From Amia ocellicauda (lineage: Eukaryota; Chordata; Actinopteri; Amiiformes; Amiidae): a stretch of DNA of 64,000 nucleotides. A program made the translations under genes and the position numbers. Position 1 is the stretch's first letter; each line of letters opens with the position of its first letter. Below, piece after piece: positions 15,961 to 21,298 of this stretch. The notes beneath the pieces are model-generated. The model was not told the DNA's origin. It did not search any database and was given only the letters and a program-made list of their open reading frames with translations. Where the stretch lies: NCBI RefSeq assembly GCF_036373705.1, contig NC_089858.1, forward strand, positions 12,773,501 through 12,837,500. Direction: 5' to 3'.

Positions 15961-18900
15961 ATGCCTCCCAAATTTGACCCCAACGAAATTAAAGTTGGTA
16001 CGTGAGAAATATATGGTAACTATGAGTCCTCGTCGTGCGAGTCTGCCTTGAATAAAGAACGAAACGCAGGCATTTTGGTAGATTCACAACAAACTGAGGG
16101 GTTTGTGTTTTTTACTTCAGGGCTAATATTCACTTAAACTTTATTTCCTGGTGTTTTTGTTATTCATAATTAGCCGGCGGCGTTGACCATGCCTGACTCG
16201 GGCCTAGACTTCATCAAGCGGTTTAGCGTATCGGGCGTTTTATTTAACCTTAACTGTCGGTGTAAAGCAGGGGAGGTTGTGCGATGGAAAACGGCTGGAT
16301 CTATACAGCGATATTATGTGGTCTGTTTTATTTCACAGGGTTTTGTTGTCATTTATTTGCTGGTTCCACTGAATATCAGTCGAGTGAACACGTGGTTGAG
16401 CATGCAATCCACACTTCACTACCGTGGGGTTTTGTGGCATCATTACATAAGTGACATTATTAAATTGTATGTTTTTATTTGGTCACGTTTATACAATATT
16501 GTTTTATACACTTGCCTAGAACCGATCTATATACAGGCTGCGATCACAAGCCTGCAAACGGGAGTCTGCGGCTGACGTCACGGTCTGTAGACATGGCGTG
16601 GACTGTTCTGGTAGAGCAACTGCAGAGTGGACTAAAGATGGATACAACGTTGAGAAATTTTAATGCTTTTTCGGAAACTGCAAAACCATTGTAGTTTATT
16701 GCAAGATTGAATGTATCAATAGTCATCACTTTACAGTGTGGGGGGGGTAATACAAAGTTTTCACTTTCCTAGTTTTAAATGATGGGATCTAGGATGATAT
16801 TCATAGGAAACAATAAGTCGAATGTGATATTTATACCGCCAGACAAGGTGGCAGGAGCAGGTGGGGTGTCGTGCAGTTGTCCACACCTTTGTCAGCTTTT
16901 CTGCTGTGAAGACGGATCTGCAGCACCCCTTGACACGTTGCTTTGCTGCGCACAATTGAAATGTACAGAATAAAAGTATTGGCGCAAGATGCACACTATG
17001 CAAAATAATAATCCATGAAGTGCAGTTCACTTGGATTTCTTCCAGCCTTATTGTATTAAATCGAACACTTCAAGCAAACTGTTCTTTGAATTAAATGTAT
17101 AAATCCAAATTTTAATGCTTCCATTTCAAAGACCATGCATAACTATACTCAGCTGTGTAGTCCAGTTGGTATACTATAACTTCACCAGCTGAGTTGCAGT
17201 ATTAAAGATGTACAAGCACCCTTCATGTTGAGAACAAAGTACTTCAATGGTGGGATTTGGTTTTGTTACTGTAACATTAATATTCAGTGAGTTTAATATA
17301 CAAGAATGTACATATTCTACTGAATGACCTGCACAAATTACAAAAATATCGTTTTGGAGGTTGACCGATTCAGTGATTAGATGCAACTTTACTGTATCTG
17401 TTCCCAAATTGAGAATAAAATTAGAACTGTAACCACAGATTAGCTATTTTACCTTAGAGTGTGGGGCTGTGTGTCCAGCAGTAATGACTTAATGCCTTCT
17501 GGCTGAATTCACTCTGGGCACTCCAGCAACTTGCAACTCAAATACAATAAAACCCTTAAATTTCCTCTGTAGGAGGATGTGCTTAATCCTGATCAATAAT
17601 GTCTGGTTTCACATACCTTGATTGGTTAGCACTAGTCTTGGACCACTCAACATAAAATAAGTAGTTTAAGATGAGTGCTGATCTGCGTCTGTGAAACTAG
17701 CCCTGAGTCTTGTGCATTTTTGCATGACCAGGTGTTCTGAGCATTATTCCGGCCTGGTCCATAACTTTGATTTAAGATCCCTGCCTAGATGGAAAAGCGT
17801 GAGAAAGCAAACTGATGCCTGAACCCCTGCAGACTGTTCTGGTCATGCTCTGTTAAAAAGTGGGGTAGTCTGGTTTTTTTAATGTCATGGTATTGCTGTC
17901 ACTGGTTTGAGTTATCTATATACAAGACCAAAAAAGGCTTGTATATCAGTCAGTGCTGATTCAATTTATTTAATCTTTAACTTATTTATTTTTTTGTTAA
18001 GAACCTTTGCATTTGCAAGTGATTATTTGTGATATTTGATGGTATAGTTTCAAGGACTTGCATGCTTCAATCCCTGTGTAAAATGCAAATCTGAGCCCTT
18101 TAATTTCAATGGGGAAGGGGGGGGGGGGGTTCAGATGTATGAAAAGTGAGGGAGTTCCTGGAGCCCCCCGCCACTATGCCTGTCCGTGTCCGTGACTGGC
18201 TTAATCCAGTGGGGGCTCAGAGAGACCCAGCTCTAGGAAGCAGCGTGGCCCTGACCAGTGGGCGGCTCTGTGCCAAATGGCCTGGAACACAATCACTGTG
18301 AGGTTACAGCGGTGTTGTGGCTGTCGTGCTTTTTCTGTGTTGAGGTGTGTGTTGCTCAGTGTTGTCCCTTCCCACAGTGTTCCTGAGGTGCACAGGAGGA
18401 GAAGTTGGTGCCACCTCTGCTCTGGCCCCCAAGATCGGACCCCTGGGTCTGGTGAGTACCACTTAAACTACCAGTCTAGAGCCCAGTTGGGATTCTAGGT
18501 TCATTTCAGTACCAATCTTATGTTCTCCTGTCTTCTCATATCATAGTTCTTTGCCAGTCTGTCTTGTGCTTTTCTCTTGGCCTCTGTGCCAGATTCACAG
18601 CGTCTCCCAGGCCTGGTGGTATAGATTGAGCACTGTAGAAACAGCAGCTGTCTTTCAGGCATGATGCCGCCAGCCTGAGTGGGAGAGCCCCCCGCCACTA
18701 TGCCTGTCTGTGTCAGTGACTGGCTTAATCCAGTGGGGGCTCAGAAAGACCCAGCTCTAGGAAGCAGGCTAGCCCTGACCTGTGGGCAGCTCTGTGCCAA
18801 ATGGCCTGGAACACACATTGAGATGCACGCATGCACACTCTCATGCACCAGTAAGAACTGGTCCGTTACATTCCCTTATAGTCCTGTTGGCACTTCACCC

Positions 18901-21298: not shown

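Follow-up and report, generated by a model that had tools for sequence, protein, structure and literature searches.

Five copies of the H/ACA guide RNA SNORA65 in the introns of the RPL12 gene of Amia ocellicauda

A Xenopus ribosomal-protein gene has been described whose six introns all contain the small nucleolar RNA (snoRNA) U17 (PMC7601244). For SNORD87, PMC3349704 counts four genes in Xenopus, four in zebrafish, two in chicken and one in human; copy numbers higher outside placental mammals are presented as a C/D snoRNA trend, and a reply published alongside that paper disputes it. Chicken SNORA65 (U65), there named GGgACA46, is reported as one copy in RPL12 intron 4, and intragenic duplication is described as the main route by which new snoRNAs arose in chicken (PMC2653536). 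Here we describe SNORA65 in introns 1, 2, 4, 5 and 6 of RPL12 in Amia ocellicauda, one 132-nt copy in each, on the sense strand. Mammals presumably have one SNORA65 in RPL12.

The SNORA65 copies and their host gene

The window, that is, the whole stretch of DNA analysed, is 64 kb long. RPL12 is complete on its + strand, and splicing of seven exons at consensus sites gave an unbroken translation of 165 aa. Both Pfam L11 domains are present in this protein, which matched solved eukaryotic uL11/RPL12 chains over residues 1-164 (best E 2.1e-99), and the product of the host gene is uL11/RPL12. Introns 1-6 measure 2380, 637, 99, 837, 535 and 352 nt. The features are as follows.

15961..15997, + strand: RPL12 coding exon 1, start of the spliced translation
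18161..18292, + strand: SNORA65 copy 1 in intron 1 (RF00302, 82.1 bits at 18167-18292)
18378..18451, + strand: RPL12 exon 2, from splice sites and frame
18685..18816, + strand: SNORA65 copy 2 in intron 2 (RF00302, 82.3 bits at 18691-18816)
19089..19187, + strand: RPL12 exon 3, from splicing and translation
19188..19286, + strand: RPL12 intron 3, 99 nt, without a snoRNA
19287..19368, + strand: RPL12 exon 4, from splicing and translation
19574..19705, + strand: SNORA65 copy 3 in intron 4 (RF00302, 81.5 bits at 19580-19705)
20206..20292, + strand: RPL12 exon 5, from splicing and translation
20573..20704, + strand: SNORA65 copy 4 in intron 5 (RF00302, 88.2 bits at 20579-20704)
20828..20940, + strand: RPL12 exon 6, from splicing and translation
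21049..21180, + strand: SNORA65 copy 5 in intron 6 (RF00302, 84.7 bits at 21055-21180)
21293..21298, + strand: RPL12 exon 7, coding part (last codon and stop), the stop closing the spliced translation

The Rfam SNORA65 model RF00302 matched all five intervals over model positions 1-127, with 81.5-88.2 bits and E values of 8.8e-15 to 3e-13. Each copy scored above the gathering cut-off of 70 bits, and these five were the only matches at that threshold in the 64-kb window. A model-free repeat search recovered the identical five-copy family. The original prediction had placed five H/ACA copies of 132 nt in these same introns, had assigned them to SNORA65 with RPL12 as the host, and had proposed the Infernal/Rfam check; the covariance model and the spliced uL11 protein bear it out on each point. 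Its remark that only the 99-bp intron 3 lacks a copy agrees with the splicing and the RF00302 matches: this intron is the shortest, and 99 nt cannot hold a 132-nt RNA. These results confirm that the array is real.

Copies 1-5 lie 2163, 233, 205, 280 and 108 nt from the 5' splice site and 85, 272, 500, 123 and 112 nt from the 3' splice site of their introns, and none overlaps an RPL12 splice site. With five copies in five introns, the locus holds a snoRNA multiplied within one host gene (cis-duplication). A family search of the host genome (988 Mb) reported at least five SNORA65 places, all five in RPL12; since 45 of 40172 first-look candidates were scored, five is a lower bound. A generic genome-wide SINE, which the original prediction had named as the finding that would undo it, was not seen, and a dispersed SINE was rejected on the same search, whose reported copies (a lower bound) were in RPL12 only. 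The family search matched 0 of 14 control genomes, and the plasmid collection gave no match to the array, which is uninformative for an animal gene.

Other observations were made in the window. ARAGORN found no tRNA anywhere in the 64 kb. By eye, the open frame at 7953-8330 (+) resembles a LINE reverse transcriptase fragment. A further open frame, at 3834-4313 (-), holds a RING finger-like cysteine-rich stretch, perhaps the end of LRSAM1, a neighbour of RPL12 in human. A long G-rich run, GGGGAAGGGGGGGGGGGG, is found at 18112-18130 (+), ~30 nt 5' of copy 1.

Structure, variation and guide pockets

MFE folds gave the two-hairpin H/ACA layout in copies 1, 2, 3 and 5. The whole-length MFE fold of copy 4 departed from it in both hairpins, and its hairpin 2 agreed when folded alone. 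The ACA box, expected to be kept in every copy, is found at positions 127-129 of 132, 3 nt before the 3' end, in 5/5 copies. For the H box, every copy matches ANANNA in the hinge at no more than two of its three A's; by our reading, the RF00302 consensus likewise shows no perfect ANANNA in the hinge. The motifs ACTGG and CCAGT, proposed as the two sides of a conserved stem, were indeed kept in 5/5 copies, but copy 4 is the only one whose predicted fold pairs them together. We read CCAGT as a guide arm.

Eleven of the 132 positions vary across the five copies (25, 31, 40, 62, 84-87, 97, 104 and 132). Between any two copies there are 1 to 10 differences: one between copies 1 and 3, three between 2 and 4, and ten between 1 and 4. 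The variable letters occupy the upper stem as well as loop, hinge and end positions. Division of the copies into sub-types 1, 3, 5 and 2, 4 stood at positions 84, 85, 87 and 104, with 86 deviating in copy 4 alone, and failed at 31, 97 and 132, where copy 5 joins copies 2 and 4. As copy 5 sides with copies 1 and 3 at 84-87 and 104, it is by its letters an intermediate or a mosaic, which five sequences cannot separate.

In hairpin 2, replacement of an AGC/GCT pairing by GCT/AGC had been taken to suggest selection on structure. We found that the apparent swap is really a register shift against an unchanged GCT at 105-107 and not a two-sided exchange. Position 104 is the sole variable letter on the 3' side of this stem, and stem 81-86/105-110, set in the Rfam register, contains a single mismatch in every copy. 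The stability of the 84-87 plus 104 haplotypes was compared, on the copy 5 background, with that of all 1024 combinations. Combinations at least as stable made up 21.9% for copies 1, 3 and 5, 28.0% for copy 2 and 61.4% for copy 4. The observed haplotypes are not unusually stable, and selection on the hairpin-2 stem is therefore rejected as something that these data show. Compensatory change in stem 81-86/105-110 was rejected on the same ordinary stabilities.

The guide arms and ACA box, which by our delimitation comprise 33 positions, contain none of the 11 variable positions. The chance of this was 0.036, or 0.093 if 84-87 is counted as one event, and the invariance lends modest support to constraint on the SNORA65 copies. 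Because guide arms and ACA are invariant, all copies should guide the same two 28S sites. The original prediction had also raised guide diversification, in which the two sub-types would aim at different targets. In its favor, hairpin 2 holds five of the 11 variable positions (84-87 and 104), and these divide the copies; the identical guide arms and ACA box, with variable letters placed elsewhere in the RNA, speak clearly against copies with different guides, and we regard this reading as extremely improbable.

The chicken U65 target sites are given as 28S-3858 and 28S-3912, 54 nt apart (PMC2653536). In yeast, the relative snR34 is described as making pseudouridine 2826, equivalent to E. coli 2457 and near the peptidyl transferase centre, and pseudouridine 2880 was also lost in a strain without snR34 and two other snoRNAs (PMC11121408). 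By our count, positions 2457 and 2511 of E. coli 23S rRNA, which are 54 nt apart, are both U and both preceded by GGC.

We checked the guide pockets against eight LSU rRNA loci from bacterial MAG records, not the host's own 28S, using a search pattern that contained the 3'-site core and the best of five pocket offsets tried; the other offsets pointed to other LSU positions. For the 3' pocket, the expected site ranked first among all T positions in 8/8 loci, with a duplex of 6+3 pairs (7+3 in L007), none of these loci being the host's. For the 5' pocket, the site 54 nt upstream ranked 1, 8, 3, 27, 1, 2 and 2 in seven loci; it was among the best three in 5/7, 8th in L009 and 27th in L011, and fell off the end in L008. 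At one locus, shuffled guides reached the observed score in 27/20000 cases for the 5' pocket and 2/20000 for the 3' pocket. A 28S pattern had no match in viral contigs.

In all five copies the 3' pocket has GCCAA as its right arm, compared with GCCGA in the Rfam consensus. The consensus arm would pair 6+5 in 7/8 LSU loci and 7+5 in L007, and GCCA instead of GCCG shortens the 3' pocket duplex from 6+5 to 6+3. One reading starts from these two lost pairs and makes the array a dosage device: copies would have been added in every roomy intron and homogenized by gene conversion. We think this very unlikely; if true, the array would keep a key pseudouridine of the peptidyl transferase centre fully made.

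The 5' hairpin of all five copies was also matched by the Rfam family mir-4599 (RF04005), at 26.2-30.3 bits, all below the cut-off of 100.

18159-18226, 18680-18750, 19565-19637, 20571-20638, 21042-21114: mir-4599 (RF04005) matches, sub-threshold

Unlike SNORA65, this family is annotated as a microRNA. Because its consensus contains CCCGCCaC and UCCAGUGG, both SNORA65 5' pocket guide arms, and matches the 5' hairpins in 5/5 copies, mir-4599 may be a SNORA65 hairpin annotated as a microRNA. It was absent among the matches listed in a literature search on mir-4599 and snoRNA.

Origin and output of the copies

The flanks of the copies were compared in ten pairs, and one shared stretch stood out.

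18817..18829, + strand: 3' flank of copy 2 common to copies 4 and 5, TTGAGATGCA plus 0-2 further letters, from the shared-run test

Copies 2, 4 and 5 have runs of 10-12 nt in common past the 3' end of the RNA, a length that 0/5000 shuffles reached for each of the three pairs; the remaining seven pairs share 2-3 nt, as by chance. Among the 5' flanks, the longest shared run in ten pairs was 6 nt (copies 2 and 5; 210/5000 shuffles). The same two flanks agree at 14/24 positions, ungapped (p ~0.0017, for one of ten pairs, uncorrected). The flanks otherwise do not align beyond the short 3' runs and this weak 5' similarity. An A-tail or A-run after the RNA was found in 0/5 copies. Target-site duplications were not found beyond chance: direct repeats in the flanks extend to at most 6 nt, a length seen for copies 1 and 4 only and attained by shuffles in 30% (copy 1) and 27% (copy 4) of cases. 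Thus none of the five copies carries the A-tail plus target-site duplication that mark a retroposed snoRNA copy.

These data bear on intron-to-intron retroposition, put forward in the original prediction, in which mature SNORA65 RNA would have been copied back into other RPL12 introns. SnoRNAs copied by retroposition have precedents, platypus being a notable one (cited in PMC10234308), and copies 1 and 3 lose identity close to the RNA ends, as retroposition would have it. Against it stand the lack of an A-run and of direct repeats longer than 6 nt, and the 3' sequence shared past the RNA end by copies 2, 4 and 5; scattered copies would moreover be expected, yet all five reported genome matches, a lower bound, are in one gene and in sense. 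We consider retroposition improbable. Because copies 2, 4 and 5 share sequence past the RNA end and retroposition marks are lacking, we infer, from little flank, that these three copies at least arose when short pieces of DNA were duplicated from one intron to another. Copies 1 and 3 may have come by either a DNA or an RNA route.

Whether every copy yields RNA is a separate matter. PMC10234308 describes how greatly abundance can differ between copies that share a host gene, and presents such unequal output as common in human. Stable RNA might accordingly come from one or two copies only, the rest being decaying duplicates. The predicted hairpin 2 of copy 4 is weaker than that of the others (-22.6 vs -25.3 to -25.9 kcal/mol), in line with such decay. 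However, the full-model score exceeds the family cut-off in all five copies and is highest in copy 4, and guide arms and ACA are intact in 5/5. Decay of most copies seems rather doubtful to us, and the copies of the array are probably functional.

We consider it likely that RPL12 carries five redundant guide genes for SNORA65 (U65) within the introns of its usual host, that they arose by DNA-level duplication, and that they serve dose or back-up, not new targets. By analogy with intronic snoRNA biogenesis, exonucleases would digest each host intron, after excision and debranching, down to a single 132-nt RNA, so that as many as five guides could come from one RPL12 transcript. The two pockets, identical in all copies, would direct pseudouridine formation at the two U65 sites of 28S rRNA, 54 nt apart and near the peptidyl transferase centre. 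The extra copies would have arisen by short duplications between introns of RPL12, and selection on the RNA or gene conversion, or the two together, may have maintained their similarity. Their likely effect would be on dose or as back-up, and a dosage role of the five copies fits.

Comparison with known systems

A literature search on SNORA65 with RPL12, intron copies and zebrafish, from which subscription papers were mostly absent, returned no title or abstract on this array. One of the closest parallels is U17 in Xenopus, as far as that account describes it: one H/ACA snoRNA spread across nearly every intron of one ribosomal-protein gene. In contrast to SNORA65, U17 acts in 18S processing and, in the same account, guides no pseudouridine, and both snoRNA and host differ. 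A study of U17 in RPS7, judging by its title, reportedly finds that larger introns serve a snoRNA and short ones do not; the likeness to SNORA65 in RPL12 is the placement in larger introns only, the difference again the snoRNA and the host gene. Chicken GGgACA46, as reported, is alike in family, in its host RPL12 and in its two sites 54 nt apart, but is a single copy against five. SNORD87 resembles the array in having extra copies of one snoRNA in non-placental vertebrates and differs in belonging to the C/D box class.

Multiplication of one snoRNA over the introns of its host gene is thus already known, and the SNORA65/RPL12 array adds another case. Few cases are known of a ribosomal-protein gene with one guide RNA in almost all of its introns, and this is a clear H/ACA example. 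Its guides are identical and eleven positions can serve as markers, which makes the array a natural system for asking whether the level of rRNA modification is set by snoRNA copy number, and how snoRNAs travel from intron to intron.
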